Source: Maribacter algarum (ex Zhang et al. 2020) (GTDB taxonomy: Bacteria > Bacteroidota > Bacteroidia > Flavobacteriales > Flavobacteriaceae). Taken from it: DNA of 64,000 bases. A model generated the notes under the pieces. That model saw only the letters and a program-made list of their open reading frames with translations. It did no database searches and had not been told where the DNA came from. Shown piece after piece: positions 2,218 to 18,159 of the stretch. Location of the stretch: contig NZ_VATY01000001.1 of assembly GCF_005885635.1 (NCBI RefSeq), positions 992,001 through 1,056,000 on the forward strand. The letters run 5' to 3'. Made by a program: the position numbers and the translations under genes. The number at the start of each line of letters is the position of its first letter. Positions within the stretch are counted from its first letter, which is position 1.

Positions 2218-2246
2218 AAAATTAGTTAATAAAGTTAACTATTATT
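2218..2246 (-). promoter_or_regulatory. Putative MarR operator A (aldehyde dehydrogenase promoter)
   Basis: The left arm AAAATTAGTTAA (2218-2229) and the core right arm TTAACTA (2235-2241) form an inverted repeat with a 5-base spacer. On the reverse strand the perfect arm creates TAATTTTA, close to the Bacteroidota -7 box TAnnTTTG, 12 bases upstream of the aldehyde dehydrogenase ATG. The same motif recurs at 2272, 14148, 14181 (half-site) and 16353, all within this cluster. I infer that the cluster MarR protein binds it. Confidence 0.65.
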
Positions 2247-2271
2247 TCGGATAAACTGGCTTAGTTTCATT

Positions 2272-2300
2272 AAAATTAGTTAACTTAGTTAACTAATTTT
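2272..2300 (+). promoter_or_regulatory. Putative MarR operator B overlapping the promoter of the main catabolic operon
   Basis: This is a perfect inverted repeat: a 12-base arm AAAATTAGTTAA at 2272-2283, the spacer CTTAG, and the exact reverse complement at 2289-2300. The right arm runs into TAATTTTG (2294-2301), which fits the Bacteroidota -7 consensus TAnnTTTG. The ATG of the first operon gene follows 17 bases later. No convincing -33 TTG is seen. Repressor binding here should block RNA polymerase directly. The spacing equals that of sites A, C1 and D. Confidence 0.7.
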
Positions 2301-2318
2301 GAAAGCGATTGATTCTTT

Positions 2319-3230
2319 ATGAATGTAAGCAAAATTATACTCGAAGAACAGGGGCTTCGCGACGGATTTCAAACTCTTGAGCAAGTTATTCCAACGGAAA
2401 AAAAGTTGGAATATGTTGACCGCTTGGTTGCTGCTGGCGTCAAACGCATTCAAGTTGCATCCTTTGTTCACCCAAGATTGGTACCTCAAATGGCAGATGC
2501 GGAGGCAGTCTGCGAACAATTGAATAAGAAAGAAGGTGTCATTTATAGCGGTTTGGTCTTAAATTTAAAAGGTGTGGTAAGAGGCATTACTGCTGGACTA
2601 GACCATTTGGCTTGTTCAATTTCCGCGAGCAATACGCACAGTCAGAAAAACGCTCGCTTGACCCTAGACGAAGCAAAAAGTGCCTTCAAAGAAATGGTAC
2701 AACTTTCCAAATCCAATGGAATTACTGTTCGAGGTGGTATTCAATGTGCTTTCGGATGTCGTTATGAAGGTCATATTGACGCAGACCATGTTCTAGATAT
2801 GGTAGACCATCATCTGGATACGGGAATCGATGAATTGGCGCTAGCTGACTCTACAGGAATGGGCAATCCCAAACAACTGCGTGATTTGATGCAAAAAGTT
2901 GTGGGAAAAGCGGGGGACATTCCTGTGATTCTGCACTTACATAACACTGAAAATAAAGGATATTCTAATTTCTATGCAGCAACCGAAGCTGGAGTACGAA
3001 TTTTTGATACTGCTTTTGGCGGTCTTGGCGGGTGTCCCTTTATCAAAAGCGCCACCGGCAATATCGCGACGGAAGATACGGCCCACACTGCACATCAGAT
3101 GGGATACGAAACCGGATTGGATATCCATAAAATAGCCGAAATAAGTAGAGAATTGGAAACGACATTGGGACACAAACTTCCCGGACAGTTGTACCAATTA
3201 GTTGATAAAGATGATATTAAGATGATTTAA
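2319..3230 (+). CDS. HMG-CoA lyase-like (citramalyl-CoA-lyase-type) enzyme
   Basis: The 303-residue protein is a TIM-barrel member of the HMG-CoA lyase/DRE metallolyase family. It has the catalytic LRDGFQ motif (R14, D15), the metal-binding His pair in HLHNT (H206, H208), and the GGLGGCPF loop with the conserved cysteine. The family cleaves 3-hydroxy-3-methylacyl-CoA thioesters; the R-citramalyl-CoA lyase of Chloroflexus belongs to this family. A class III CoA-transferase and an aconitase-type hydratase in the same operon favour a hydroxyacyl-CoA cleavage such as citramalyl-CoA to acetyl-CoA and pyruvate over leucine catabolism, because no other leucine-degradation gene is present. It is the first gene of the operon, and its stop codon overlaps the next ATG by one base. 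The substrate is inferred. Confidence 0.8.
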   Translation: MNVSKIILEEQGLRDGFQTLEQVIPTEKKLEYVDRLVAAGVKRIQVASFVHPRLVPQMADAEAVCEQLNKKEGVIYSGLVLNLKGVVRGITAGLDHLACSISASNTHSQKNARLTLDEAKSAFKEMVQLSKSNGITVRGGIQCAFGCRYEGHIDADHVLDMVDHHLDTGIDELALADSTGMGNPKQLRDLMQKVVGKAGDIPVILHLHNTENKGYSNFYAATEAGVRIFDTAFGGLGGCPFIKSATGNIATEDTAHTAHQMGYETGLDIHKIAEISRELETTLGHKLPGQLYQLVDKDDIKMI

Positions 3231-4465
3231 TGGGACAGACAATTTCAGAAAAAATTATATCGAACCATGTTGGCAAAAAAGTATATGCCGGCGAACTCGT
3301 CGTTAGTGAAGTAGATGGTTGTATGGCAAGTGACACTACTGGTCCTTTGACTATCAAAGCCTTTCATGAAATGGGTGGAAAAAAAGTTTTTAATCCGGAT
3401 AAGTGTGCGTTGATTATTGACCATGCTGCACCATCACCTAACGAAAGAATTGCCAATTTGCATAAAATGATGCGTGACTTTGCGAAAGAACAGGGCATGC
3501 GTTTGTTTGAAATTGGAGAGGGTATTTGTCACCAAGTAATGGTCGAAAACGCCTATGTAAAACCAGGAGACATTTTTATCGGTGCGGATTCACATACGCC
3601 AACCTATGGAGCCTTAAATGCCTTTGCATGCGGAGTGGGTTCTACGGATTTAGCCGCGACTATGATGACCGGAAAAATATGGCTGAAAGTTCCGCAGACC
3701 ATTCAAATCAATTGTTCTGGGAAATTGCAAGAAGGTGTGACCGCAAAAGATTTGATTCTGTTTTTAGTTGGAAAAGTAACCGTTTCAGGAGCTACTTATC
3801 AAGCTATTGAATTTACAGGAGAAGCGTTTGAAGGACTGAGCTTGGCAAGCCGAATGACCATTGCAAATATGTCATCCGAAATGGGGGCGAAAACAGGAAT
3901 CGTTCATCCAAAAGGGTTGGAACTGAATTATGATTTTGAAGCGATTACTCCTGATGAAGATGCCAATTATATTAAAACTTTTGATTTCGATGTCTCAGGA
4001 TTGGAGCCACAAGTAAGTGCGCCAGAATCTCCAGATAATGTGCATAACATTTCCAATTATGAAGGCACCAAAATCAACTATGCTTTTATAGGCACATGTT
4101 GTAATGGAAGATTAGAGGATTTGGACATTGCCGCAGAAATTTTAAAGGGAAAGAAAATACATCCCGATGTGCGGATGGTAATTGCTCCAGCATCGCAGAG
4201 CGTTTTGTTAGATGCCATAAGTAACGGCACGATGACTACTTTAATTGAAGCAGGAGCGTCATTAATTACCTCAGGTTGCGGCCCCTGCGTAGGAACGCAT
4301 CAAGGCGTTCCTGCTGATGGCGAAGTTGTGATATCGGCAGCAAATCGGAATTTCAGAGGAAGAATGGGGAATCCGAATTCCAACATTTACTTGGGCGCGC
4401 CTTCAACAGTTGCGGCATCCGCTTTAGAAGGACAAATTGTGAATCCTAAAAAATACTTGGTGTAA
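3230..4465 (+). CDS. Aconitase-family hydratase, large subunit (LeuC/DmdA-like)
   Basis: The 411-residue protein matches the isopropylmalate dehydratase/homoaconitase/dimethylmalate dehydratase large-subunit family, whose members hold a 4Fe-4S cluster and hydrate or dehydrate C4-C7 hydroxy-acids. Cluster ligands are visible in FIGTCCNGRLEDL and SGCGPCVGTHQG, and the DSHTPTYGALNAFACGVGSTD segment is typical. Its length is that of short archaeal/anaerobe-type large subunits rather than of ~465-residue LeuC. It overlaps the previous gene by one base and is followed one base later by its small subunit. In this context I infer a catabolic hydratase (for example citraconate or a substituted maleate to the malate derivative) instead of leucine synthesis, because leuA and leuB are absent. 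Confidence 0.85.
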   Translation: MGQTISEKIISNHVGKKVYAGELVVSEVDGCMASDTTGPLTIKAFHEMGGKKVFNPDKCALIIDHAAPSPNERIANLHKMMRDFAKEQGMRLFEIGEGICHQVMVENAYVKPGDIFIGADSHTPTYGALNAFACGVGSTDLAATMMTGKIWLKVPQTIQINCSGKLQEGVTAKDLILFLVGKVTVSGATYQAIEFTGEAFEGLSLASRMTIANMSSEMGAKTGIVHPKGLELNYDFEAITPDEDANYIKTFDFDVSGLEPQVSAPESPDNVHNISNYEGTKINYAFIGTCCNGRLEDLDIAAEILKGKKIHPDVRMVIAPASQSVLLDAISNGTMTTLIEAGASLITSGCGPCVGTHQGVPADGEVVISAANRNFRGRMGNPNSNIYLGAPSTVAASALEGQIVNPKKYLV

Positions 4466-4466
4466 G

Positions 4467-4976
4467 ATGAGTGAAGTACAAACAAATATCAAAGCAAAGG
4501 CGCATGTGTACGGAGACCATATAGACACAGACCGTATCATCCCAGGAAAATATACCAAAACATTGGACATGACTACTTTGGCCAATCATGTTTTGGAAGA
4601 TTTAGACCCTAATTTCAATAAGATTGTACAACAAGGAGACATTCTGGTTGCTGGCATCAATTTTGGTTGTGGTTCTTCCAGAGAACAAGCGCCCTTAGCT
4701 TTAAAAAAGTCAGGAGTTTCTGTGGTTGTCGCCAAGGATTTTGCGCGTATCTTTTTTAGAAATGCGATCAATATCGGACTTCCCGTATTAGAAATCGCAG
4801 ACCATAACATTCAAAAAGGAGCCGAGCTCGATATTGATTTAAAGGAAGGAAATGTAAAAGATTTAACGGCAGGTGTTACTTATACTGCTACCAAACTTCC
4901 GGATATTATGATTAATATTTTAGCAGAAGGCGGCTTGGTAAATTATCTAACCAAATATGGAGATTACTCCCTTTAA
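4467..4976 (+). CDS. Aconitase-family hydratase, small subunit (LeuD/DmdB-like)
   Basis: The 169-residue protein is the swivel domain that completes the hydratase active site. It shows the family signatures GDHIDTDRIIPGKY near the N-terminus and GCGSSREQAPLALK (substrate-binding Ser-Arg loop) near residue 67-80. Length is usual for the stand-alone small subunit. It starts one base after the large-subunit stop and ends 2 bases before the next gene, so it is translated within one tight operon. Partnering with the preceding subunit is expected from family knowledge. Confidence 0.87.
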   Translation: MSEVQTNIKAKAHVYGDHIDTDRIIPGKYTKTLDMTTLANHVLEDLDPNFNKIVQQGDILVAGINFGCGSSREQAPLALKKSGVSVVVAKDFARIFFRNAINIGLPVLEIADHNIQKGAELDIDLKEGNVKDLTAGVTYTATKLPDIMINILAEGGLVNYLTKYGDYSL

Positions 4977-4978
4977 TC

Positions 4979-5548
4979 ATGAGCAGAATTGCGCCAATTT
5001 CAGATTATCAAACTAGTGAATTAGCCCCACTGTTTGAACAAGCCGAAAAATGGATGGGCTTTCAGCCCAACGATGGATTGCTCATGGCGCACAAACCCAA
5101 CCTCCTAATTTCCTTTTTTAGTTTGGCCAAAGCAGTTTATGACGAAGGCTACGTAGACCAAGGTTTAAAGCGAATGATTGGACATATTGCAAGCCTTTCC
5201 GCAGGATGTGAATATTGTAGTGCCCATACAGCCTTTAGTGCTGAAAAAAATGGCGTTTCCGAGGAAAAAATGAAGTCCATTTGGAATTTTCAAACCTCAT
5301 CCTTGTTTTCCAAAAGAGAAAAAGCAGCCCTAAATCTAGCATTGAAATCGAGCATGGTGCCTAATCAGGTTAAGGAGGTAGATTTTACAGAATTAAAGAA
5401 ACATTTTAGTGATGCGGCCATAGTAGAAATTATGGGCGTAATTTCTCTCTTTGGATTTCTTAACCGATGGAACAGTACCTTCAAAACTGAATTGGAAGTG
5501 CAACCAAAAAAAGCATACGAATCTATCAAAACAACTGAAAATGCATAG
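4979..5548 (+). CDS. AhpD/carboxymuconolactone-decarboxylase-like protein
   Basis: The 189-residue, all-helical protein carries the AhpD-type redox/acid-base motif CEYCSAH (Cys-x-x-Cys-x-x-x-His) after LKRMIGHIASLSAG, the usual arrangement in peroxidase-like carboxymuconolactone decarboxylase family members. Family members either act as alkylhydroperoxidases or are of unknown role, and many sit in catabolic operons. There is no signal peptide. The last 8 bases overlap the start of the CoA-transferase gene, which implies translational coupling. Its job in this pathway is not clear; protection from a reactive intermediate is possible. Confidence 0.8.
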   Translation: MSRIAPISDYQTSELAPLFEQAEKWMGFQPNDGLLMAHKPNLLISFFSLAKAVYDEGYVDQGLKRMIGHIASLSAGCEYCSAHTAFSAEKNGVSEEKMKSIWNFQTSSLFSKREKAALNLALKSSMVPNQVKEVDFTELKKHFSDAAIVEIMGVISLFGFLNRWNSTFKTELEVQPKKAYESIKTTENA

Positions 5549-6722
5549 TGCCCCACTAAAAGGTTTAAAAGTATTAGAATTCACACATGCCGTAATGGGC
5601 CCTTGTACTGGTTTGTTGTTGGCCGATATGGGTGCGGACGTCGTTCATATTGAACCTACAAAAGGAGACAATACCCGGAGGTTAAAGGGTTTTGGTACAG
5701 GATATTTTTGGTTTTACAATCGTAATAAAAAGAGTTTGGCGGTTGATTTGAAATCGGAGGAAGGTATTCAACTGATTTATGATTTAGTGAAGGAATATGA
5801 CATTGTTGTTGAGAATTTTGGCCCAGGTACGATGGACAGACTTGGTCTAGGCTACGAAAAACTCAAAACTCTAAATAATAAACTTATATACTGTTCATTA
5901 AAAGGATTTTTAAGTGGTCCTTACGAGAAAAGACATGCCATGGATGAAGTTGTTCAAATGATGGGCGGCCTTGCATATATGACCGGTCGTGAGGGAGACC
6001 CTCTGCGCGCCGGGACTTCCGTCATTGATATCACGGGCGGAATGTTTGGTTACATCGGTATTCTTCAAGCCCTTTATGAACGTGAAAAAACAGGTGAGGG
6101 TGGCTTCGTAAAATCGGCGCTTTTTGAAACCTGTGCTTTCTTGATGGGTCAGCATATGGCCTATGCTTCACAGATAGATTATGAGATTCCACCAATGCCC
6201 TCCCGTGTAAGCGCATGGTCTATTTACAAAGTGTTTGACACTAAAGATGATAGTAAAGTTTTCGTAGGTATCATTAGTGAAAAACACTGGGCCAGATTAT
6301 GTGAGGTATTTGATTGGAGTGATTGGAGCAGCGATGGACGTCTTGAAACGAACAACAAACGTATCGATGAACGAGATTGGTTTTTGCCAGCACTTGATGA
6401 ACGATTTAAAGCCTTTACAAAACAAGAAATCATCAACCGATGTGATAAAGGTCATATTCCGTTTGCCCCAATTAGTCAGCCCGAAGATTTGTTCGACGAT
6501 GTTCAACTTAACGAAGGAGATAGTCTTTTGAATGTAACCATGCCGGATGGAAAAAAAACAAAACTTCCTAAATTTCCATTGGAATATAAAGGAACCCGTT
6601 CAGGCATTCGTATGGATCCTCCCAAAATCGGAGAACACACCGCAGAAGTTTTAAAAGAATTGAATATTGATGATGATGCCATTGCGAAAATGGTCGCTGC
6701 AGGAATTATAAAAACGGAGTAA
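5541..6722 (+). CDS. Class III (CaiB/BaiF-type) CoA-transferase
   Basis: I place the start at the ATG at 5541, inside the 3' end of the preceding gene (ATGCATAG overlap), which yields 393 residues and the normal family N-terminus APLKGLKVLEFTHAVMGP. An earlier in-frame start at 5451 would add 30 non-homologous residues. The expected catalytic aspartate lies in GPYEKRHAMDEVVQMMGG. Class III transferases move CoA between carboxylic acids, usually from succinyl-CoA. Given the neighbouring hydratase and lyase, I infer activation of the hydrated diacid (citramalate-like) before cleavage; the same transferase-lyase pairing is known for R-citramalate in Chloroflexus. Confidence 0.85.
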   Translation: MHSAPLKGLKVLEFTHAVMGPCTGLLLADMGADVVHIEPTKGDNTRRLKGFGTGYFWFYNRNKKSLAVDLKSEEGIQLIYDLVKEYDIVVENFGPGTMDRLGLGYEKLKTLNNKLIYCSLKGFLSGPYEKRHAMDEVVQMMGGLAYMTGREGDPLRAGTSVIDITGGMFGYIGILQALYEREKTGEGGFVKSALFETCAFLMGQHMAYASQIDYEIPPMPSRVSAWSIYKVFDTKDDSKVFVGIISEKHWARLCEVFDWSDWSSDGRLETNNKRIDERDWFLPALDERFKAFTKQEIINRCDKGHIPFAPISQPEDLFDDVQLNEGDSLLNVTMPDGKKTKLPKFPLEYKGTRSGIRMDPPKIGEHTAEVLKELNIDDDAIAKMVAAGIIKTE

Positions 6723-6745
6723 TTATCTAAATTAAACACCGAAAA

Positions 6746-7174
6746 ATGAGGTTTCTGGTTATTTTATTATGCTTTATGGTAAATGCTTCGCTATTATCCC
6801 AAGAACCAAATGTAAAGGAACGTGATATTTTAAAGCAAATTGAACATCTTCGCACTGCACATTTGAATAGTGATGTAGACTTGGCTTCTGAATTGTATCA
6901 CTCTCAATTGATACTGACTTCACAAAGTGGCAAAAAATATAAAAAGGATGTCGCACTAGTAAATATCAAAAACACTTTTGAAAGCTATGAAAGTTCAGAC
7001 ATCGAATTCGTGTATATTTCGGATGATGTCGTATTGACCAATTACATCAATGAACGCAAGTACAAGGATTATGACAAAGGTAAATTTCGTTTGACTGTGG
7101 TATGGACAAAACATGAAGATGCTTGGAAAATCATCTCCATGCAGTCTTCAAAAATAAGGGAACCAAAAAAGTAA
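6746..7174 (+). CDS. Exported NTF2/SnoaL-like (DUF4440-type) protein
   Basis: The 142-residue protein has a clear signal peptide (MRFLVILLCFMVNASLLSQE) followed by one NTF2-like cone: an N-terminal helix with LRTAHLNSDVDLASELYHSQLILTS and a C-terminal sheet FRLTVVWTKHEDAWKIISMQSS. Members of this family can be small hydrolases/isomerases or binding proteins, and no catalytic set can be assigned. It is co-directional with the operon (23-base gap before, 6 bases after). It is unusual as the only exported product in an otherwise cytoplasmic enzyme operon. Confidence 0.72.
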   Translation: MRFLVILLCFMVNASLLSQEPNVKERDILKQIEHLRTAHLNSDVDLASELYHSQLILTSQSGKKYKKDVALVNIKNTFESYESSDIEFVYISDDVVLTNYINERKYKDYDKGKFRLTVVWTKHEDAWKIISMQSSKIREPKK

Positions 7175-7180
7175 TATACT

Positions 7181-8026
7181 ATGCGCCCTATTATTCAAAT
7201 CGATGAACTATTCACACTACGCGATGCTAAAAATCTTATCATCGTTTACGCCAGTAGCGGTGCCGATGCTTTTTCAAAATATCAAGCAAAGCATTTAGAT
7301 GGTTCGCTCTTTTTAGATTTAAATAAAGACCTTTCTGAAATACCTGAAGATGCATCGAAAGGCGGAAGACATCCTTTACCAAAAATTGAAAATTTTGCTA
7401 AGACTATTTCCGTTTTAGGAATATCTCCGGAAAGTCATGTCGTAATTTATGACGACAAAGGTGGAGCTAATGCTTCCGCTCGATTTTGGTGGATGCTCAG
7501 AGCAATTGGGCACGAAAAGGTTCAGGTTTTGAACGGAGGAATTCAAGAAGCTGAAAAACAAAAATTCCCTATAAATTCTGAAAGTGTACAACCGCATTCT
7601 ACAGCAGCCTATCCGGTCATTACATGGAAGCTTCCCATGGCTGAAATTAAGGAAGTTGAAAGAGTTTCCCAAGATGCAGAACATATGGTTGTTGATGTTC
7701 GTACAACACCCAGATACAATGGAGAGTTTGAACCGCTTGACCTAGTTGCAGGACATATACCTGGAGCAGTCAATACCCCCTTTACCGAGAATTTAGATAA
7801 TTCGGGACTATTCAAATCCCCTCAAGAATTAAAAGAAAAATACAACCAATTGTTTGGCGATGTTCCAGAAGAAAATAGGATATTTCATTGTGGTTCAGGT
7901 GTAACCGCTTGCCATTCACTTTTGGCTATAGCCTATGCCGGATTGGAAATTCCAAAACTCTACGTAGGCTCTTGGAGCGAATGGAGCAGAAACGATAAGG
8001 CAATCGCCACTGAACTTAAAAAGTAG
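7181..8026 (+). CDS. Two-domain sulfurtransferase (mercaptopyruvate/thiosulfate type)
   Basis: The 281-residue protein has two rhodanese domains. The C-terminal domain holds the active-site loop HCGSGVTACHS, and the CG(S/T)GV(T/S)A pattern is that of 3-mercaptopyruvate sulfurtransferases rather than of thiosulfate-specific enzymes (CRKGVTA). The N-terminal domain has the usual non-catalytic DDKGGANASARFWWMLRAIGH. It transfers sulfur from 3-mercaptopyruvate or thiosulfate to a thiol acceptor or cyanide. There is no signal peptide, so it is probably cytoplasmic. Why a sulfurtransferase belongs in this operon is open: a sulfur-containing or cyanide-releasing substrate is one thought, but it is only inference. 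Confidence 0.85.
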   Translation: MRPIIQIDELFTLRDAKNLIIVYASSGADAFSKYQAKHLDGSLFLDLNKDLSEIPEDASKGGRHPLPKIENFAKTISVLGISPESHVVIYDDKGGANASARFWWMLRAIGHEKVQVLNGGIQEAEKQKFPINSESVQPHSTAAYPVITWKLPMAEIKEVERVSQDAEHMVVDVRTTPRYNGEFEPLDLVAGHIPGAVNTPFTENLDNSGLFKSPQELKEKYNQLFGDVPEENRIFHCGSGVTACHSLLAIAYAGLEIPKLYVGSWSEWSRNDKAIATELKK

Positions 8027-8048
8027 CATATAGATGAAAGGAACAAAA

Positions 8049-8711
8049 ATGCAAACCACTGATAAAACAGCCAAAGAACTTTATTTTGAAGTAAAAGCGA
8101 ACCCGGCACGAAAACGATTTGGATTTGGTAAAAAAGCAGCTTTGGTAAATATTGATATTCAAAAAGCATACACAAGAACCGACCTTTTTAAAACGGCCTA
8201 TGAAGCCGACCCAAAACAACTGGATTATGTAAACGAACTAGCCGCTAAATTTAGAGTTTTAGGTTGGCCTGTAGTTTGGACAAACGTTGCCTATATGGAT
8301 ACAGCGGCCGATGCAGGTATTTGGGGAACACGAACAGATACACCGGATAGCCTACAAAACATCAAATTCGGCTCAGAGCGTTCCGAGTTAGATGACCGCT
8401 TGATTTTAGACCGTTCTACAGATGTTTTTTACGAAAAGAAAATGCCTTCTCCCTTTTTTGAAACACCCCTTCAATCGCTTTTGGTTTGGCATCAAGTTGA
8501 CACGGTAATTTTGACTGGTGGTTCAACTTCAGGTTGTGTTCGCGCTGCTGGTGTAGATTCGCTTTCGAGAGGATATCGGACCATCATTCCTGAAGAATGT
8601 GTTGCCGACAAACATGAGAGTTATCACTATGCCAACTTGACTGATTTATCTTTGAAGTATTGTGATGTTATGGAAGTAAAAGAAGTTCTTAGTTGGTTAA
8701 ACAATCAATGA
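8049..8711 (+). CDS. Isochorismatase-family cysteine amidohydrolase
   Basis: The likely start is the ATG at 8049 (220 residues), preceded by AAAGGA at a 7-base distance; an ATG at 8034 is also in frame. The catalytic triad of the isochorismatase/N-carbamoylsarcosine amidohydrolase family is visible as Asp in VNIDIQKAYT, Lys in YEKKMPSPFF and Cys in GGSTSGCVRAAGVDSLSRGY, with the cis-peptide-forming GGSTSG segment. Such enzymes hydrolyse amides or ureido groups, for example maleamate, nicotinamide, N-carbamoylsarcosine or ureidoacrylate. Adjacent PuuE-like genes suggest that it removes ammonia from a half-amide produced by ring opening. That order is inferred. Confidence 0.85.
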   Translation: MQTTDKTAKELYFEVKANPARKRFGFGKKAALVNIDIQKAYTRTDLFKTAYEADPKQLDYVNELAAKFRVLGWPVVWTNVAYMDTAADAGIWGTRTDTPDSLQNIKFGSERSELDDRLILDRSTDVFYEKKMPSPFFETPLQSLLVWHQVDTVILTGGSTSGCVRAAGVDSLSRGYRTIIPEECVADKHESYHYANLTDLSLKYCDVMEVKEVLSWLNNQ

Positions 8712-8714
8712 TTT

Positions 8715-9665
8715 ATGAAAGAAGATCCAGGATATTATGATTATTGGCCCTACGAAAATCGACCAAAGATTGAATGGCCCAATGGTGCCAAAGTCGCTTT
8801 TTGGGTAGCTCCCAATATCGAGTTTTATGAATTAAATCCACCTGACAATCCGTTTCGAAAACCTTGGCCTCAGCCTTGTCCGGCTTTGCCTGGATATACT
8901 TCTCGCGATTGGGGAAACCGAGTTGGTCATGTACGTCAAATGGAACTGCTTGAAAAATATGGTATTCGAGGTTCCATCTCTTTATCGACGGCTTTATGTG
9001 ACCATCATCCTGAAATTATTAAGATGAGTAAAGAGCGTGATTGGGAATTCTTCAGTCATGGTATTTACAACACTCGCTATACGTATGGAATGACCGAAGC
9101 TCAAGAACGGAAAATGATTAAAGATTCTATCGAAACCATCTATAAACATACGGGGCAAAAGTGTGCTGGATATCTTGCCCCTGCCCTTTCACATTCCGAA
9201 AACACGCTTGACCTTTTTGCAGAAGTAGGCACTGAACTTTTTGGAAATGAAGCAGGAATTTATTCCTGCGATTTATTCCATGATGACCAACCAACTCCGA
9301 TTCATTTAAGAAGTGGGAAGAAGTTTGCTTCGATTCCATATTCCTTGGAAATGAACGATACTATTGCTTATTTGGTTCAAAAAATTACCCCAAGAAGATA
9401 CGGCAAAGAACTCAAAGACAACTTTGACAGACTTTATGCCGAGGGTGCTCAAAGCGGAACGATAATGTGTATTCCCACCCATAACTATCAGGTAAGCAAT
9501 GCCCATAGAATAAAGGCGTATGAAGAGGCGCTCGAATACATTACCGGGCATTCCGATGTTTGGGTAACCACCGGAAAAGAAATCGCACAGTACTTTTTAG
9601 ACAATTATTATGATGACTCGTTAGCAGATATCGAAACTAAAAACAAGAAATATGGCAACGCTTAA
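8715..9665 (+). CDS. PuuE-like polysaccharide deacetylase homologue, paralogue 1
   Basis: The 316-residue protein belongs to the polysaccharide deacetylase fold branch that contains PuuE allantoinase and cyclic imide hydrolases: it starts with the IEWPNGAKVAFWVAPNIEF strand (E36), continues with SRDWGNRVGHVRQMELLEKYGI, and has a FFSHGIYNTRY motif instead of the full H-S-x-x-H metal site. It has no signal peptide or cell-wall domain, which argues against peptidoglycan or chitin as substrate. The 3' end overlaps the next gene by 14 bases. I infer C-N ring opening of a cyclic amide or imide. A role as a heteromer with its neighbour is possible. Confidence 0.78.
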   Translation: MKEDPGYYDYWPYENRPKIEWPNGAKVAFWVAPNIEFYELNPPDNPFRKPWPQPCPALPGYTSRDWGNRVGHVRQMELLEKYGIRGSISLSTALCDHHPEIIKMSKERDWEFFSHGIYNTRYTYGMTEAQERKMIKDSIETIYKHTGQKCAGYLAPALSHSENTLDLFAEVGTELFGNEAGIYSCDLFHDDQPTPIHLRSGKKFASIPYSLEMNDTIAYLVQKITPRRYGKELKDNFDRLYAEGAQSGTIMCIPTHNYQVSNAHRIKAYEEALEYITGHSDVWVTTGKEIAQYFLDNYYDDSLADIETKNKKYGNA

Positions 9666-10578
9666 TGACGACTATTTACAATACCCTGAGCGTTCGTATG
9701 GAATGGACCATGACCGTTACGAGTGGTCAATGCTGCAAGATAGAAAAGCAGTGCAATGGCCAGACGGAAAGAAAGTAGCGCTTTGGGTCAATGTGGGATT
9801 ACAATTTTTCCCCTTAAACCAAAAGGGGATTCCGTTTAAAGTTCCTGGTGGAATGACAAAACCTTATCCTGATTTAAGGCATTACAGTTTGCGCGACTAT
9901 GGCAATCGGGTAGGTATTTATCGATTTTTAAAGGCTTTTGATACATACAACATTACGCCCACCTTTGCCATGAATACCAGGTTGGCAGAACGCATTCCGT
10001 ATTTAGTTAATACTATCAAAGAACGTGGCGATGAAATCATGTGTCATGGTTGGGATATGGATAAGTTGCACTATGGTGGACAAGATGTATCTGAAGAAAA
10101 AGAACTTATCAAAAAATCCTTAGAAACACTTAGAAAACTAACGGGGCAAGATATCACCGGATGGATAAGTCCCGCTAAAAATGAATCTGAGAATACTCCA
10201 GACTTACTTTCTGAAAATGGCATCAATTACTTCTGTGATTGGGTAAACGATGATATGCCGTATGATTTTAAAACTAAAAATGGGGCTTTAACAGCCATGC
10301 CATTACCCACCGAATTGGATGACTATTTTATTATCAACAACAATTTACATTCTTCAGAGGACTGGGCCGACCAGATAGAAGATGCATTTGAATTCTTATT
10401 AAAAGAAAGTAATACCGGTGGTGGACGCATATTGGCCTTAAATATTCATCCATGGGTATTAGGGCAACCTCATCGTATTCAGTATCTTGAACGTGTTCTC
10501 GAAAAGTTGGGCGGCCATCCTGATGTTTGGTCTACCTCAGCAACGAGCATCGTCAATGTTTGGAAAAGCCAAAAGTAA
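9652..10578 (+). CDS. PuuE-like polysaccharide deacetylase homologue, paralogue 2
   Basis: The 308-residue protein is a diverged tandem paralogue of the previous gene product (shared WPxGxKVAxWV start, RDxGNRVGxxR, GYLAP/GWISP and THNYQ/IHPW motifs). It keeps CHGWDMD and NIHPWVLGQPHRI, which are closer to PuuE than in paralogue 1, but has Gln (about Q51) where paralogue 1 has E36. Both are leaderless and cytoplasmic. The 14-base overlap implies coupled translation, consistent with either a two-subunit enzyme or two successive hydrolytic steps. Substrate unknown. Confidence 0.78.
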   Translation: MATLNDDYLQYPERSYGMDHDRYEWSMLQDRKAVQWPDGKKVALWVNVGLQFFPLNQKGIPFKVPGGMTKPYPDLRHYSLRDYGNRVGIYRFLKAFDTYNITPTFAMNTRLAERIPYLVNTIKERGDEIMCHGWDMDKLHYGGQDVSEEKELIKKSLETLRKLTGQDITGWISPAKNESENTPDLLSENGINYFCDWVNDDMPYDFKTKNGALTAMPLPTELDDYFIINNNLHSSEDWADQIEDAFEFLLKESNTGGGRILALNIHPWVLGQPHRIQYLERVLEKLGGHPDVWSTSATSIVNVWKSQK

Positions 10579-10589
10579 ACAGATACTAA

Positions 10590-11486
10590 ATGACCGAATT
10601 CTTATCAGCTTACATTCCTACCATTCTCCAAATTCTCCTTTTTTTGGTAATGTTTGGCATGGGAATGACGTTGACTATTCCTGATTTTACAAGAGTCGGT
10701 ATAGCACCAAAAGCAGTTTTCACAGGTTTGGTGAATCAAATTGTTTTGGTACCTTTAATCGCCTACGGCATTGTGTTATTAATACCCATGGAACCCATGA
10801 TTGCTATGGGATTGATGGTATGCGCCTGCAGTCCGGGCGGAGCGGTTTCGAATTTGTTCTCCTATTTATCAAAAGGAGATACTGCACTTTCAATTACCTT
10901 AACCGCAATTAGTAGCATCATAACCATTTTCACGATTCCATTGATTATCAATTTTTCTTTGGATGCCATACTTGGGGAAGCTTCCAAAAGCATTCAATTA
11001 CCATTAGGAAAGACCATATTCAATATTTTCAAGCTAACGGCTTTACCTGTTTTCTTAGGAATGTTTATAAACTACAAATTTCCAGCTACAGCGGAAAAAA
11101 GTAAGCCGGCCATTAAATGGGGTTCAATTACCGTTATTGTGCTAGCATTAATTTTTATGGTTTTGAAACTAGAAGAAATCGGAGACAGTTGGTCTTTTCT
11201 GAAAGCTACATTTTTGAGTGTTGTGTTGCTTAACTTCTTCACGTTGGGTATTGGTTTTTTCAGTGCAAAATCCCTTAAATTATCGACCAAGCAATCAGCT
11301 ACTATTTCAATAGAAAGCGGCATGCAAAATAATGTTCTAGGAATGACCCTAGCGATGTCTCCTGGATTATTGAATAGTCCTGAAATGGCTGCGACACCAG
11401 GTGTCTATGGTGTTGTTATGAGTGTTTTCGCCATTGGGGTAATTTACATTTACAAGACAATGATAGTTAAAGAAGAAAAGGCATGA
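10590..11486 (+). CDS. Bile acid:sodium symporter (BASS/SBF) family transporter
   Basis: The 298-residue protein is hydrophobic throughout with 9-10 predicted membrane segments. It has the family motifs VMFGMGMTLTIPDF in helix 1, GLMVCACSPGGAVSNLFSYLSKGDTALSITLT around the first crossover, and IESGMQNNVLGMTLA in the second repeat. BASS proteins import organic acids (bile acids, pyruvate, pantoate, sulfonated or carboxylated compounds) with Na+. As the only transporter in the operon, it is the likely uptake system for the cluster substrate or an acidic intermediate. Its last 4 bases overlap the next ORF (ATGA). Confidence 0.87.
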   Translation: MTEFLSAYIPTILQILLFLVMFGMGMTLTIPDFTRVGIAPKAVFTGLVNQIVLVPLIAYGIVLLIPMEPMIAMGLMVCACSPGGAVSNLFSYLSKGDTALSITLTAISSIITIFTIPLIINFSLDAILGEASKSIQLPLGKTIFNIFKLTALPVFLGMFINYKFPATAEKSKPAIKWGSITVIVLALIFMVLKLEEIGDSWSFLKATFLSVVLLNFFTLGIGFFSAKSLKLSTKQSATISIESGMQNNVLGMTLAMSPGLLNSPEMAATPGVYGVVMSVFAIGVIYIYKTMIVKEEKA

Positions 11487-12256
11487 ATCTTTATTTAGAA
11501 AACAAATTATTTTTAGTAGGAGGCGCGACAAGCGGACTTGGAAAAGCCATTTTGGAGCAGTTAATTTCCGAGGGAGCCAAGATTATCGCTATCGCTCGAA
11601 CCCAAGAAAAATTGGAAGCTTTGCAAAGCACTAATTCTGCAATTGAAATTGTTGCTGGCGACCTGTCTGAAGAAGCAGTTTTGGACTCAGTTTTACAGCA
11701 GGTTGGCAATCGCATTTTGACTGGTGCCGTCATTAATTCCGGAGGTCCACCCGCAATGCCCGTTATGGAAGCTACTCTTTCTGACTGGGATGAAGCTTAT
11801 AAATCAGTTGTTCGATGGAAGATCGCTTTGACCCAAGCCCTGCTTCCTAAAATGATTGATGGCGGCTATGGCAGATTGTTATATATAGAAAGTGTATCGA
11901 CAAAGCAGCCCGTGGAAAATCTCGTTTTGAGCAATGCAATGCGATTAGCAGTAACTGGGTATGTAAAAACACTTTCTCAAGAAATCGGAAGTTCAGGAGT
12001 TACCTTAAACATACTGGGTCCAGGATACCATGCAACACAACGTATGGAAAATCTGTTCGCAAAAAACAGTGAATTAAAAGGCATTCCGGAGGAAGAGATT
12101 CGAAAAACATTTTCTGACCAAACGGCTGTAAAGCAAATCGGAAAACCTGAAGATTTTGCTTCTTTGGCTGCTTGGCTACTTTCACCAATGAGTGGTTATA
12201 TAACAGGTCAAACCATCACGATGGACGGGGGTCTAGTGAAAGGTATTATGGGTTAA
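11483..12256 (+). CDS. SDR-family protein lacking the canonical Tyr-x-x-x-Lys
   Basis: The 257-residue protein has the Rossmann entry GGATSGLGKAILEQL (residues 13-27) and ends with the usual SDR MSGYITGQTITMDGGL. Ser137 is conserved (YIESVST), but at the canonical +13/+17 spacing the sequence is SNAMR (S150, R154) in place of Tyr-x-x-x-Lys. A subgroup of SDRs annotated as 3-oxoacyl reductase-like shares this substitution, so it is a family trait and not a sequencing fault. It may use a different acid/base or have a non-redox role. It is the last gene of the rightward operon and is followed by a hexamer repeat. Confidence 0.83.
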   Translation: MNLYLENKLFLVGGATSGLGKAILEQLISEGAKIIAIARTQEKLEALQSTNSAIEIVAGDLSEEAVLDSVLQQVGNRILTGAVINSGGPPAMPVMEATLSDWDEAYKSVVRWKIALTQALLPKMIDGGYGRLLYIESVSTKQPVENLVLSNAMRLAVTGYVKTLSQEIGSSGVTLNILGPGYHATQRMENLFAKNSELKGIPEEEIRKTFSDQTAVKQIGKPEDFASLAAWLLSPMSGYITGQTITMDGGLVKGIMG

Positions 12257-12280
12257 GGGAGTTAGGAGAAAAATAAATTT

Positions 12281-12336
12281 TTGAACTTGAGCTTGATTCT
12301 TGAGCTTGATTCTTGAGCTTGAACTTGAACTTGAAT
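12281..12336. repeat. TTGARC hexamer tandem repeat between convergent genes
   Basis: Nine units fill 56 bases: TTGAAC, TTGAGC, TTGATTC, TTGAGC, TTGATTC, TTGAGC, TTGAAC, TTGAAC and TTGAAT. The unit is 6 bases with two 7-base variants. It occupies almost the whole gap between the stop codons of the convergent genes ending at 12256 and 12339. It is not a hairpin, so it is not an ordinary terminator. Such low-complexity repeats may arise by slippage. Confidence 0.85.
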
Positions 12337-12338
12337 TT

Positions 12339-13085
12339 CTAATGCATACTCGCACCTCCATTTACATGAATGCATTGCCCAGTCAAATGAGAAGCTCCAT
12401 CACTGAGTAAAAATAAAATTACTGAACTAACCTCTTCAGGTTTCGCTATACTTCCCAAAGGAACCATTTGCATATACCGCTCTTTATCAAAACGCGTAGA
12501 ACCATCTTCCTTATAAATAAAATTAGTATCAACGGCTCCCGGAGCTACTGTATTTACCCTGACTTCAGGCGCTAATTCCGCGGCTAAGGTTTTACTAAAA
12601 CTAATAACGGAGGCTTTTCCCGCGCTATAGGGTCCATAATTTTTTTGCCCAATAAAGGCAAGTCCGGATGACATGTTTACAATCGATGAATCAGGTGTTA
12701 TTTTCAACAGTGAAGCAAAAGCTTTGCAAGAGTTAAAACAACTCTTAAAACTAATGTCATAGGTTTCATTCCATTCGTCTGCATTCAAACTCTCTATAGA
12801 TTTAAATTGACGAATCGTACCTGAAAGATTTACCAACGAATTGAGATGAGAAGTATGGTTTTGGATAGTCTTGACCATCTCAACCATTTCCTTTTCTTCA
12901 AGAGGGTTTGCTCTGAAATAAAAATAGTTTTCTATTATTGGAAATCTGGATTCCTTCTGGATATCCACCCCAAAAACCATGGCCTTCGCTTCTAAAAGTT
13001 GTTTGATAAGTTCTTGCCCAATACCACTATTAGCACCGATTAATACTACGAAAGATTTGTCTGCCTGATACTTTGCTTTAATCAT
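12339..13085 (-). CDS. Classical SDR-family oxidoreductase
   Basis: I take the ATG at 13085, one base after the stop of the upstream gene (TAAGATG), which yields 248 residues; a TTG seven codons upstream is less likely. The protein has the cofactor loop GANSGIG, a conserved Ser in NMSSGLAF, and the catalytic YSAGK (Tyr-x-x-x-Lys), so it is a catalytically complete SDR. It ends in TGQCIHVNGGASMH. It probably oxidises or reduces a hydroxyl/keto group of a pathway intermediate. It forms a two-gene leftward operon with the hydrolase-fold gene under operator C1. Confidence 0.85.
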   Translation of the reverse strand: MIKAKYQADKSFVVLIGANSGIGQELIKQLLEAKAMVFGVDIQKESRFPIIENYFYFRANPLEEKEMVEMVKTIQNHTSHLNSLVNLSGTIRQFKSIESLNADEWNETYDISFKSCFNSCKAFASLLKITPDSSIVNMSSGLAFIGQKNYGPYSAGKASVISFSKTLAAELAPEVRVNTVAPGAVDTNFIYKEDGSTRFDKERYMQMVPLGSIAKPEEVSSVILFLLSDGASHLTGQCIHVNGGASMH

Positions 13086-13086
13086 C

Positions 13087-14127
13087 TTATTTTTTATCAA
13101 CTTCAAAATTTTCAGAATACCAGTCCGTTAAATAGGTTTGAATGGTTTCCGCAGTTTCTTGAGGGTTATTTTCAACAAGGTCTTGCCACGCTACTAAGAG
13201 GTGATTCCCGTTCGATTGCACTTCTGGCGGAGTACTAGTTGACTTCTTATACACTAATTGTATTTCTTCCTGAACATTAATTTCTGAAGTATCAATTGTT
13301 TCTACGCCAAATTCAGTTGCTTTTTCATTCATAAAAGCAACCATTTTTTCTGTGCGTTCGGTTGCATCTCCTTCAATCATAAAACCCTGAATGTGGTCCT
13401 CAAAATCATGAGCTAAAAGTTGGTCAACATATTTAGTTATAATGCTATTATTCCATCGAAAGATAGTCGTCGGTACTTTTAACTGTTGCACGTATTGTCC
13501 ACGTTCGTGCTGAAATGCCAATTTGTAGGCTATGTCATAAGTGCTACCTGCCCTCAAATAATCCATGGCTATCATTTGTAAAACAAAATCTGGCATTTGA
13601 GGTCGATTTAGGGCGTATTCTTCAGTTGTGAAACACCATGGAAAATACTGAAACAATTGCGAAACAATCGTCCAGATTTGAGTGAGATGACCCCCGTCTA
13701 ATTTCGGGGTTAAATCGGGAAAGTAATGCTCCAAAATCTTATCTGACAAAGCATCATCGAAATGAGCTGAGTTATCAAGAAAAATATGGGAAACCACCTC
13801 AGGATATTCCAAACCGTAGCGAACAGCCAATTGCGCTCCTGTCGCCGAACCATAAATAGCTGGTTTTTTAAGACCCATTTTTTTTAAAGCTTTGTATAAG
13901 AATGCGGTATAGTTCGATAGGTGGGTGGGACTCTCGATTAAGGCATCAGATTGACCATATCCAGGAGTATCGACACAGTAAACGGTATAGTGCAATGCCA
14001 ATTGGCGCGCCAAAGGAATTAACGACAGACTACTACTCGGCGAAGGATGTAGCATAAGTAATGCCGGCCCCTTGCCCATTGTATAAAAATGAAGTTTTTG
14101 ATTGTCGATTTCTACAAAATTGCTCAT
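13087..14127 (-). CDS. Alpha/beta-hydrolase-fold protein with an altered nucleophile elbow
   Basis: The 346-residue protein has a standard hydrolase-fold N-terminus (LHFYTMGKGPALLMLHPSP, oxyanion region; CVDTPGYGQSD). The nucleophile elbow, normally G-x-S-x-G, reads G93-S-A95-T-G97, so the nucleophile position is Ala, with a Ser one residue earlier. The C-terminal region that normally carries the catalytic His reads MIEGDATERTEKM and lacks it. A C-terminal extension of ~80 residues follows. Other hydrolase-fold families with lost nucleophiles (for example with G-x-H-T-G elbows) exist. It may be a lyase, decarboxylase or binding protein rather than an esterase. Operator C1 precedes it. Confidence 0.8.
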   Translation of the reverse strand: MSNFVEIDNQKLHFYTMGKGPALLMLHPSPSSSLSLIPLARQLALHYTVYCVDTPGYGQSDALIESPTHLSNYTAFLYKALKKMGLKKPAIYGSATGAQLAVRYGLEYPEVVSHIFLDNSAHFDDALSDKILEHYFPDLTPKLDGGHLTQIWTIVSQLFQYFPWCFTTEEYALNRPQMPDFVLQMIAMDYLRAGSTYDIAYKLAFQHERGQYVQQLKVPTTIFRWNNSIITKYVDQLLAHDFEDHIQGFMIEGDATERTEKMVAFMNEKATEFGVETIDTSEINVQEEIQLVYKKSTSTPPEVQSNGNHLLVAWQDLVENNPQETAETIQTYLTDWYSENFEVDKK

Positions 14128-14147
14128 ATTATCTCTGGAAGTTTTAA

Positions 14148-14176
14148 ATAATTAGTTAATATAGTTAATTATTTAT
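14148..14176 (-). promoter_or_regulatory. Putative MarR operator C1
   Basis: An arm ATAATTAGTTAA (14148-14159, one mismatch to the consensus) and TTAATTA (14165-14171, one mismatch in the core) are separated by 5 bases (TATAG). The site lies 20 bases upstream of the hydrolase-fold gene ATG at 14127, in the short divergent promoter region shared with the MDR gene. It belongs to the same motif family as sites A, B and D. Confidence 0.55.
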
Positions 14177-14180
14177 AATA

Positions 14181-14193
14181 TTAACTAATTTTG
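14181..14193 (+). promoter_or_regulatory. Operator half-site C2 overlapping a TAnnTTTG box
   Basis: TTAACTAATTTT (14181-14192) is an exact copy of one operator arm, and TAATTTTG (14186-14193) fits the -7 consensus, just as in operator B. The partner arm 5 bases upstream is degenerate (5 of 12 matches), so this is a half-site. It would serve the rightward MDR-VOC transcription unit, whose ATG is at 14224. A TTG start at 14191 would lie inside this box, which is why I reject that start. Confidence 0.5.
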
Positions 14194-14223
14194 AGTACTT
14201 TTAAGAACTATAAAACATTTAGG

Positions 14224-15219
14224 ATGACAAATACAATAGTAACTCTCGAAAGCAGACCTACAGGTGCCATACAAGAAAGTAATTTTGGTATGAAAACCGA
14301 AGAAATACGTGAGTTAAATGACGGAGAGTTTCTTGTAGCCATCGAAGCCTTATCAATGGACCCAGCTATTCGAGGATGGATGAATGCTGGTACAACCTAT
14401 ATTAAAGGAATAGAATTAGGCACCGTTATGCGCAGTTTTTCCGCTGGAAAAGTCATACAGTCAAAGAACGATGCTTTCAAAGTCGGTGACTATGTAGAAG
14501 GTATGTTAGGCGCGCAGAGCCATGCCATTTCCGATGGTTCTGGCATGCGGATAATTGATGTATCAAAAAGTAAACTAACCCACCATTTAGGCGTTTTAGG
14601 GATGCCCGGAATGACGGCCTATTTCGGTTTGTTACGAAGAGGGGAGCCTAAAGCTGGTGATGTTATATATATTTCCGCCGCTTCTGGAGTAGTTGGTTCG
14701 ACAGTAGGGCAAATAGCTAAAATAAAAGGGTGTACCGTTATTGGTTCCGCTGGAAGTGATGCCAAGTGTAAATTCTTGATTGATGAGTGTGGATTCGATT
14801 ACACAATCAACTATAAAACCGAAAACCTTGACGCCAAACTGAAAGAATACGCGCCAAACGGAATTCACATTTTCTATGACAATGTAGGTGGAGATACTTT
14901 GAACACCGCCTTGGCAAATTTAGCCCAAGGTGCCCGTGTCGTTATTTGTGGAGCTATTTCGCAGTATAATGATATGGCCAACATCCAAGGTCCAGCTAAC
15001 TATATGAAAATTGTGACTGCAAGAGGATACATGACAGGAATTATCGTTTTTGACTTCGTAAAAGAATGGCCCGCGGCCGCTAACGAAATTGCCGGTTGGA
15101 TTGCAGATGGAAAAATAAATGTAAAGGAACATATTGTAGAGAGTCTTGAGAACTACTTTTCAACTTTACAAATGTTATATACAGGTGAAAATTTTGGCAA
15201 ACTAATCCTGACCGTTTAA
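14224..15219 (+). CDS. Zinc-free MDR NADP-dependent oxidoreductase (LTB4DH/CurA type)
   Basis: The chosen start is the ATG at 14224 (331 residues), because the TTG at 14191 falls in the promoter box. The protein shows MDR landmarks: ALSMDPAIRGWM near the N-terminus, GMPGMTAYFGLL, the nucleotide loop ISAASGVVGSTVGQIAKIKG, and YDNVGGDTLNTAL. It lacks the Cys/His ligands of zinc alcohol dehydrogenases. This subfamily reduces alkenal or 2-alkenone double bonds with NADPH. In the pathway it could reduce an activated C=C bond. It is followed 4 bases later by the VOC gene, so the two form an operon. Confidence 0.87.
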   Translation: MTNTIVTLESRPTGAIQESNFGMKTEEIRELNDGEFLVAIEALSMDPAIRGWMNAGTTYIKGIELGTVMRSFSAGKVIQSKNDAFKVGDYVEGMLGAQSHAISDGSGMRIIDVSKSKLTHHLGVLGMPGMTAYFGLLRRGEPKAGDVIYISAASGVVGSTVGQIAKIKGCTVIGSAGSDAKCKFLIDECGFDYTINYKTENLDAKLKEYAPNGIHIFYDNVGGDTLNTALANLAQGARVVICGAISQYNDMANIQGPANYMKIVTARGYMTGIIVFDFVKEWPAAANEIAGWIADGKINVKEHIVESLENYFSTLQMLYTGENFGKLILTV

Positions 15220-15223
15220 TCAT

Positions 15224-16294
15224 ATGGGTGAAACTTTGGAAAAACAGAACTTACCCGATACCGGAATTAGTGGCGTTTATGAAGTAATTTTAGGTACGGA
15301 TGATGCCGAGTATGCGAAAAAATACTTCGCAGATTTCGGATTTCAAGAGTTTGATAGGTCCACAATCTCAGCGAAAGAGGCATCAAGAATTTATGGTGTT
15401 GATTCCAAACTCACCTCGTACCGTCTACAAAACGGAAAGATAGATAGTCATGGTTTGCTTCGGATTTTAGAATGGGAAAAACCGTTGGGTAAAGGTATTG
15501 GCTATGCTCCGGTAGAAACCATCGGTTCTCGCATAGCAGTCATGCGTACCCATGATATTTTTCGACTCTATGATATCTATAAGATGGCTCGAGAAGAAGG
15601 AAAAAAACTTTGGTTGCCCACAGAACCCATTGCCGATGACCTTTTCGGATTGAATACCGGAGAACGTGATTTCTTTAACCGCCCAATTATTGTGCGTGAA
15701 AATGCCGTTTATGGTCAATTTTTCAATCATATTTTCTTTCAGCGCTATGGATATGTAATTCCCGGTTACGGAACTATTGAAGATGATACACCGTTAAAAA
15801 CTAGTGAATTCACCCATCATGATTTCATTATCGATGCAGAATCTATGGAGCAGATGAGTTATCTATCCACCGCTTTAGGATTGAAAGCAGAAGAAGCACC
15901 CGCCCTAGATGGAGATTGGTTGGAAGGACCAAAAAGAGTATTTCAAATGGAGCCGGGTTTCAGCCATGTATACCAAGGTTTTGTATCACCAAATAATATC
16001 TGTGGAAAGATGAAATTTTTTATTCCAAATGGAGTAAAACCTAACAAATCCAAAAGTCAGCGTATTGGTGAAAAAGGAATCACTTTGCATTCATTTTATA
16101 CCCCAAAGCTAAATATGGTACATGAATTAGTTTCAGAGCACAAACTAAATCCGACCCAGATAGTTAAAAATGAATTCGAAGAGCGTTCATTTCTTTTTTC
16201 AGATACCGCGGGTGTAAGTTGGCAAATAATAGAAAGGAACGAGCCAACAAAAAGTAAACCAGCTACAAAGCTCGAATTCAAGAAAGAAGAATGA
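15224..16294 (+). CDS. VOC-superfamily protein, two-module (extradiol dioxygenase/glyoxalase fold)
   Basis: The 356-residue protein can be divided into two vicinal-oxygen-chelate halves: GISGVYEVILGTDDAEYAKKY at the start of the first and FTHHDFIIDAESMEQMSYL at the start of the second. Candidate metal ligands of the second half are His in THHDF, His in GITLHSFY and, at the usual third-ligand position of DTAGVSWQIIE, Gln. Its length is near that of 4-hydroxyphenylpyruvate dioxygenase-like and two-domain ring-cleavage enzymes, but I cannot assign one. It might be the oxygenase or isomerase of the pathway. It is co-transcribed with the MDR gene. Confidence 0.7.
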   Translation: MGETLEKQNLPDTGISGVYEVILGTDDAEYAKKYFADFGFQEFDRSTISAKEASRIYGVDSKLTSYRLQNGKIDSHGLLRILEWEKPLGKGIGYAPVETIGSRIAVMRTHDIFRLYDIYKMAREEGKKLWLPTEPIADDLFGLNTGERDFFNRPIIVRENAVYGQFFNHIFFQRYGYVIPGYGTIEDDTPLKTSEFTHHDFIIDAESMEQMSYLSTALGLKAEEAPALDGDWLEGPKRVFQMEPGFSHVYQGFVSPNNICGKMKFFIPNGVKPNKSKSQRIGEKGITLHSFYTPKLNMVHELVSEHKLNPTQIVKNEFEERSFLFSDTAGVSWQIIERNEPTKSKPATKLEFKKEE

Positions 16295-16352
16295 AGTTCG
16301 TAAAACTTGTCTATTAATAGTGGTTTTTAACGAATGAACAGCCTTTACATTC

Positions 16353-16379
16353 AAAATAGTTAATAATATTAACTATTTT
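16353..16379 (+). promoter_or_regulatory. Putative MarR operator D (nitrilase-fold gene promoter)
   Basis: AAAATAGTTAA (16353-16363) and its exact reverse complement (16369-16379) flank a 5-base spacer TAATA. Arms and spacing match operator B apart from one fewer T/A pair. The right arm makes TATTTTTA (16374-16381), one base off TAnnTTTG. The TTG start of the nitrilase-fold gene is 25 bases downstream. Confidence 0.65.
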
Positions 16380-16404
16380 TACGCCTAGATATAAAATTTC
16401 AATT

Positions 16405-17478: not shown

Positions 17479-17991
17479 ATGATAGAGAAAAGCATTGAAG
17501 AATCGATAGTATTGAGCATTTTTGAACTGGCCAATCAGTTGAAAAAAATAGGTGATGAAGTTTATCAAAAAGTTGAACTCACCACCCAGCAATGGCTAAT
17601 TTTATTGCATTTGGCTGAAAATCCAAACCTACCTTTTTTCAAGAGAGAGAAGCATAAAAAGGCCTTGATGGCAAGCGAATTGGCAGAATCATTGAACGTT
17701 TCACGCGCCAATATCACAAACCTTATCAACGTCCTTCTCGATAAAAATTTAATTAAGCAATACGAAGATGAAGACGATAGACGAAAAAAACGTTTAGAGC
17801 TCACAACAAAAGGCGTTGAATTGGTCAACCGAACCCAACCTTCTCGGCTTGCCGTAATTATGTTTTTGACCGAAGGTTTTAGCAAAGAAGAGAAGGAAAC
17901 CTTCTTACTCTTCTTAGAAGCCTGTACGGGTAAAATCACAGATGAGGAAGAAAAAATCAAGTCTTTTCACAAACTTTTGGTTGAAGCTTAA
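17479..17991 (+). CDS. MarR-family transcriptional regulator of the catabolic cluster
   Basis: The 170-residue protein has a winged helix-turn-helix of MarR type: TTQQWLILLHLAENP, then KALMASELAESLNVSRANITNLINVLLDKNLIKQYEDEDDRRKKRLELTTKG with the DxRxK wing. MarR proteins are dimers that bind inverted repeats and are released by aromatic or acidic ligands. It lies at the end of the cluster, and it is the only regulator gene between 790 and 18000. The repeated palindrome at 2218, 2272, 14148 and 16353 is therefore its most likely operator. No copy is seen in its own 54-base upstream gap, so it is probably read through from the nitrilase promoter. Confidence 0.88.
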   Translation: MIEKSIEESIVLSIFELANQLKKIGDEVYQKVELTTQQWLILLHLAENPNLPFFKREKHKKALMASELAESLNVSRANITNLINVLLDKNLIKQYEDEDDRRKKRLELTTKGVELVNRTQPSRLAVIMFLTEGFSKEEKETFLLFLEACTGKITDEEEKIKSFHKLLVEA

Positions 17992-18149: not shown

Positions 18150-18159
18150 GTTTAAAAAG

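Follow-up and report, generated by a model that had tools for sequence, protein, structure and literature searches.

The window analyzed herein is a 64,000-nucleotide stretch of the Maribacter algarum genome (C1:992001-1056000 of 5.11 Mb distributed over 20 contigs), in which genes of a seemingly catabolic cluster are interspersed with palindromes and followed by a gene for a MarR-family regulator (17479-17991). Five palindromic elements had been claimed for positions 2218-16379, all of which were indeed found there, and it is very probable, as far as sequence comparison can tell, that they represent operators of this MarR protein, which would be a cluster-specific repressor with MexR/CouR-like sites. 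When scored with the 29-mer AAAATTAGTTAA-N5-TTAACTAATTTT (24 arm positions), the window shows three matches with no more than three mismatches versus 0.00 expected from 100 dinucleotide shuffles, and a chance origin of the palindromes is excluded. Operator 1 lies in the interval from which the aldehyde dehydrogenase and HMGL-like lyase genes diverge, with operator 2 at a distance of 54 bp (an identical distance is seen in the relatives G011 and G227); operator 3a/3b is flanked by the alpha/beta hydrolase gene on one side and the oxidoreductase gene on the other. The original prediction took 14181-14193 for a lone half-site, a status that had to be rejected: since double operators with a 16-bp spacing exist in this cluster, the element forms the outer arm of another, 17.7-bit dyad (the 29-mer at 14164-14192) whose inner arm overlaps the first. 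Preferring 14224 to 14191 as the oxidoreductase gene start was sensible, because the TTG at 14191 falls in an operator arm, and counting from the ATG gives 331 amino acids, a length shared by G011, G039 and G227.

Considering this regulon “local” and confined to 2218-16379, however, was too narrow. Operators with the core TTAGTTAAY-N3-RTTAACTAA occupy 14 promoter places over 66 kb (C1:942111-1008376) as well as two unlinked promoters, with exact or near-exact copies extending up to 50 kb to the left of the window and 4 of these 16 places falling within it. For the scans, a symmetric matrix was built from sites of four other genomes only (this genome being left out), and a sequence profile was made from the same 35 sites, the training sites having been picked by eye. 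The matrix revealed 20 dyads above 10 bits in an 87-kb region, all of them between 942111 and 1008356; as one of six simple shuffles gave a lone 22.6-bit peak, 60 dinucleotide shuffles of the region were made, resulting in a mean of 0.017 positions above 15 bits versus 20 in the real sequence. In the genome-wide profile scan, for which the best 150 of 4411 first-look candidates were scored (150 per genome elsewhere), every hit with an expectation (E) value below 0.12 was located either at the 14 cluster places or at C15:399750 and C1:1267332, the next one being C12:682280 (E 0.215), and the motif, instead of turning up at many unrelated promoters, thus has 14 of its 16 places in this genome within the cluster. 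The unlinked promoters carry perfect-core operators just upstream of a cysteine desulfurase gene (L010:7755-7775; C15:399754) and of a methionine-aminotransferase-like gene (L009:8336-8356; C1:1267335).

Thirteen of the 14 sites with up to three mismatches in this genome’s region are intergenic and upstream of gene starts, and the sole genic one (1002003) is not among the dyads exceeding 10 bits. Across 144 operator-gene pairs from six genomes (10-200 bp apart, double dyads counted twice), the dyad centre lies a median of 69.5 bp from the start codon, and at the nitrilase-marR promoter, compared in 16 loci, the core arms retain a mean column identity of 96% versus 57% in the 36-bp flanks, gaps being counted as differences. 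Inverted repeats in so many copies might also be transcript hairpins or terminators rather than protein sites, an explanation that is hardly credible given this placement upstream of starts, arms of almost pure A+T that are conserved next to diverged flanks, and the lack of the motif in sampled genomes without marR.

The pairing of the motif with the MarR protein, which had merely been inferred in the original prediction, is strongly backed by comparison. Within a sample of 408 genomes (14 of the genus and 397 of the family, 3 of which are shared), the genomes having a MarR orthologue and those having the exact motif are the same six: 2/14 in the genus and 5/397 in the family, where two genomes gave one match each to a reversed control pattern. 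The family protein searches fully scored the best 9 candidates per genome where more existed, so the absences established by these and by the profile hold at that search depth, the exact-pattern searches being free of such a limit. For four complete genus mates without marR, the profile returned nothing but noise (best E values of 0.324, none, 0.204 and 0.175). Furthermore, 15/15 named relatives of the locus (labelled Croceitalea, Maribacter, Muricauda, Aquimarina, including Aquimarina sp. RZ0, and other Flavobacteriaceae, a Clostridium locus, L054, with 24% identity having been left out) carry an operator ahead of the nitrilase gene, at roughly 1.1 kb from marR on the upstream side, although two of these, L048 and L049, correspond to the contigs of G011 and G039, which supplied training sites. 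The lone hit with at most two mismatches in L042 (16201) looks like chance, and the profile picks out two different places in this locus, at positions where relatives carry sites.

G164, which possesses a MarR orthologue (78%) and is not among the 4/397 family genomes encoding the 356-amino-acid VOC marker, retains the motif and therefore indicates that regulator and motif stay together even when the cluster marker is lacking. Homologues of this genome’s region within its C9:123001-178523 segment comprise only MarR and five mutase/carboxylase genes, and exact sites precede the carboxylase operon (C9:160921) and a cysteine desulfurase gene (C10:164805); a profile hit within a coding frame (C1:230403, E 0.0072) was taken as chance. 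The carboxylase-operon site is present in all six genomes (in G011, a frame called from further upstream runs across it), and the cysteine-desulfurase site in four (G000, G011, G345 and G164), with the adjoining proteins being 73-79% identical to the one of M. algarum.

Some observations nevertheless weigh against assigning the sites to this protein. The six genomes with marR and the motif come from four genera and most of the sites are linked to marR, so co-transfer accounts for part of the association; this genome contains ten other MarR_2 matches above the cut-off; no site with up to three mismatches stands directly upstream of marR in G164; G039 and G227 did not show the cysteine-desulfurase site; and the aminotransferase site was seen only in M. 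algarum. In a class sample of 375 genomes, the MarR protein was matched in this genome and in G701, a member of another family, whose homologue (33-35% identity; L066/L067, G701:C27:20405-25001) adjoins homologues of three cluster genes, one for the BASS transporter (50.5%) and two others (54% and 56%), and the profile detected no operators of this cluster’s type in G701 (best E 0.13). A perfect AAATTGGTATG-N5-CATACCAATTT precedes one of these homologues and has a near copy 10 kb away (with up to two mismatches, three places in the G701 genome versus one for a control), which may, as a single example, represent a drifted operator of equal spacing. The sites could also be those of a different, unlinked transcription factor that was inherited along with the cluster, MarR regulating something else, and the additional MarR_2 proteins, the linkage that makes association by co-transfer possible and a genome-wide regulator survey limited to the MarR family speak for it; this is, however, quite unlikely in view of the identical gene and motif sets, the persistence of the motif in G164, where the conserved block consists of MarR and the mutase/carboxylase genes, the confinement of the unlinked cysteine-desulfurase sites to MarR-bearing genomes in the samples searched, and a site geometry that is of the MarR type.

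As for the favored MarR protein itself, it matches Pfam MarR_2 (PF12802) with 43.1 bits (cut-off 27) and MarR (PF01047) with 41.1 bits (cut-off 24.6), while its matches to the NCBIfam equivalogs AdcR, Saro_0803, MprA, HpaR, BilQ, FabT, SlyA and OhrR (8/8) are far below the cut-offs. Its structure model is of moderate confidence (predicted local distance difference test, pLDDT, of 67.3), and among the 50 PDB matches listed, all those whose titles name a protein are MarR-like (template modelling, TM, scores by query of 0.44-0.62). It had been called the sole nearby regulator and is the only one recognized among 65 reading frames of at least 80 amino acids in 942124-1009991; Pfam was applied to 57 of these and NCBIfam alone to the other 8 (of the latter, one is cut at the end of its locus and one was covered in part), and several frames have no family match. 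The order oxidoreductase-VOC-nitrilase-marR is kept in 11/15 named loci; an extra frame occurs within it in L050, L052 and L051 (in the latter, the marR frame is uncalled though the protein is present in the alignment), and L047 begins at the VOC gene. The nitrilase-like gene probably starts at ATG 16498 and not at TTG 16405, the resulting 308-amino-acid reading being found in four relatives (G011, G039, G227 and G345). A tRNA-Asn gene (18159-18233) is located just downstream of marR at the cluster edge; the idea of it being a shared integration site was rejected, as there is no tRNA-Asn in the 15 named loci.

Table 1. Proposed operators, regulator and target genes (window positions unless prefixed with C1).
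Feature	Position	Strand	Remarks
MarR-family regulator gene, 170 amino acids, proposed repressor	17479-17991	+	Pfam MarR_2 and MarR matches
Operator 1, single dyad	2218-2246	none	2/24 mismatches; 37.1 bits
Operator 2, perfect single dyad	2272-2300	none	0/24 mismatches; 37.6 bits
Operator 3a, first dyad of double operator	14148-14176	none	4/24 mismatches, 2/16 in core; 34.0 bits
Operator 3b, second, weaker dyad	14164-14192	none	17.7 bits; centre exactly 16 bp from 3a
Operator 4, single dyad upstream of nitrilase-marR	16352-16380	none	3/24 mismatches
Double operators	C1:943155/943171, 969722/969738, 973670/973686		16-bp spacing, both dyads >10 bits
Double operators	C1:985274/985290, 988087/988103, 1006152/1006168		16-bp spacing; last = window 14152/14168
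Aldehyde dehydrogenase gene, proposed target	790-2205	-	Pfam Aldedh; dyad centre 27 bp from start
Proposed target unit, part 1	2319-12256	+	HMGL-like lyase, LeuC/LeuD-type hydratase subunits, CMD, CoA transferase, DUF4440
Proposed target unit, part 2	2319-12256	+	Rhodanese, isochorismatase-like hydrolase, two PuuE-like deacetylases, BASS transporter, SDR
SDR and alpha/beta hydrolase genes, proposed target unit	12339-14127	-	Dyad centre 35 bp from hydrolase start
Oxidoreductase (ADH_N_2) and VOC-like gene, proposed target unit	14224-16294	+	VOC-like gene without Pfam match
CN-hydrolase (nitrilase-like) gene upstream of marR	16405-17424	+	Pfam CN_hydrolase

If the MarR protein is the repressor, a dimer would bind the core just upstream of start codons, one winged helix per arm, and would thereby silence the 66-kb catabolic cluster, the adjoining propionyl-coenzyme A (CoA) carboxylase/methylmalonyl-CoA mutase operon, its own nitrilase-marR unit (i.e., autoregulation) and, elsewhere in the genome, one cysteine desulfurase and one aminotransferase. 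The repressor might be released by a metabolite of the cluster, conceivably an acid or acyl-CoA en route to propionyl-CoA, an inducer weakly suggested, as for CouR, because no target is more constant than the carboxylase/mutase operon. The cluster places comprise eight single dyads and six double ones (in each of these, the two dyads exceed 10 bits and stand precisely 16 bp from one another). When pairs are counted once, partner dyads above 5 bits in six genome regions stand at 16 bp in 37 cases versus 10 at other distances of 6-59 bp, and in 17 versus 3 cases in 13 other loci; as single sites exist, the 16-bp partner is not forced by the motif itself. At the six promoters concerned, overlapping dyads 16 bp (~1.5 turns) apart could let two dimers bind to roughly opposite faces of the DNA.

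The coexistence of the two architectures (8 single versus 6 double places) would also suit a MarR protein acting mainly as an activator, or switching roles between single and double operators, and passages of the literature do describe some MarR proteins that activate; moreover, only some of the sites cover the strict -7 box. TAnnTTTG is the strict flavobacterial -7 box consensus, and its proposed overlap with the operators held for two window elements (2294-2301 and 14186-14193) and failed as a general rule: the box points toward the gene in 8 and away from it in 5 of the 144 operator-gene pairs, which is no enrichment, and 5/81 operators have it on either strand versus 3.7-7.2% of AT-rich control windows. 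Among the nitrilase-marR sites, it points toward the gene in 8/16. Activation is still unlikely, as dyads near start codons and between divergent genes occupy the usual place of a repressor, and the characterized MarR proteins, as portrayed in the same passages, mostly repress.

Repression by MarR would extend to a set of putatively catabolic enzymes. The genes at 2319-12256 are closely spaced on one strand and would be co-transcribed. The cluster encodes an HMGL-like lyase, two LeuC-type large subunits with one LeuD/DmdB-type and one aconitase C-terminal-type small subunit, an HpcH aldolase, hydantoinase A and B subunits (nearest to caprolactamase, yet below its cut-offs), two PuuE-like deacetylases, an N-carbamoylsarcosine-amidohydrolase-like enzyme, a CN hydrolase, a CaiB-type CoA transferase, and E1 and E2 of a 2-oxoacid dehydrogenase. 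It is adjoined by a methylmalonyl-CoA mutase and a biotin-dependent carboxylase, the latter being “propionyl-CoA carboxylase” only putatively, because its carboxyltransferase scores under the cut-off set for the best-matching model. Three CpeT/CpcT-like (bilin-lyase family) proteins are also encoded (L006:4879-5886, L006:13058-13778 and L006:17205-17999), along with a HapK-like protein and a sub-threshold DUF3598 match, families presumably linked to bilins or prodigiosin. Three DUF1838 paralogues are present as well (L006:5912-6829, L006:15247-16144 and L008:8337-9216); a search with one of the three found no solved relative, and its fold model is weak (pLDDT 48.9).

This enzyme set hints at lactam/imide compounds and, perhaps, at linear tetrapyrroles as substrates. 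That the regulon serves to degrade linear tetrapyrroles (chlorophyll catabolites or bilins from algae) is a tentative and rather doubtful proposition, under which the CpeT/CpcT-like and HapK-like proteins would handle the pigment, VOC enzymes and flavoproteins would break it, and lactam/imide/amide hydrolases would open the rings. The alkyl-maleates would then be split by LeuCD/DmdB-type hydratases together with HpcH/HMGL lyases, their products entering the propionyl-CoA branch, whereas MarR would sense a late acid or acyl-CoA and the cysteine desulfurase would be co-induced, building the iron-sulfur hydratases.

Whatever the substrate, a well-supported regulator-operator pair in marine Bacteroidota marks the boundary of an uncharacterized 66-kb pathway, telling which genes belong together, the unlinked cysteine desulfurase and the propionyl-CoA branch included. 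A list of obscure enzymes thereby becomes a testable pathway, and the operator could act as a reporter for the inducing compound. What makes the system valuable is that an uncharacterized regulon becomes sharply defined, its kind being already known; the papers listed by an open-access literature search include none on this MarR regulator, its motif or its cluster. With 5-bp arms and a 5-bp spacer (GTTAA-N5-TTAAC), the operator is of the MexR/CouR type. CouR of Rhodococcus jostii RHA1, a MarR repressor of a catabolic regulon with the box ATTGA-N5-TCAAT, is released by an acyl-CoA of its pathway and acts on four promoters (PMC4737184); judging from passages of that paper, the two systems share a MarR protein in charge of a catabolic regulon, several promoters and the 5-bp spacer, but differ in arm sequence and in extent (four promoters versus sixteen places here), and double operators, a feature here, are not mentioned for CouR in those passages. 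MexR of Pseudomonas aeruginosa has two GTTGA-N5-TCAAC sites near one promoter (PMC5063474), with arm length and spacer equal to those seen here, yet it controls drug efflux at one intergenic region instead of a large catabolic cluster. MepR of Staphylococcus aureus, which is among the matches in both sequence and fold searches with the MarR protein, is described as using GTTAG-containing pseudo-palindromes, thought to be bound by one dimer at one promoter and by two at another (PMC3617543); the likeness lies in the protein family and in these pseudo-palindromes, and MepR, unlike the MarR protein here, is a multidrug sensor of an efflux operon. For the double operators, the likeness to QacR, whose two dimers read overlapping palindromes from opposite sides (PMC6018408), is an analogy only, QacR being of the TetR family, while MarR proteins with two sites may, according to a review, occupy opposite or adjacent sides of the DNA.

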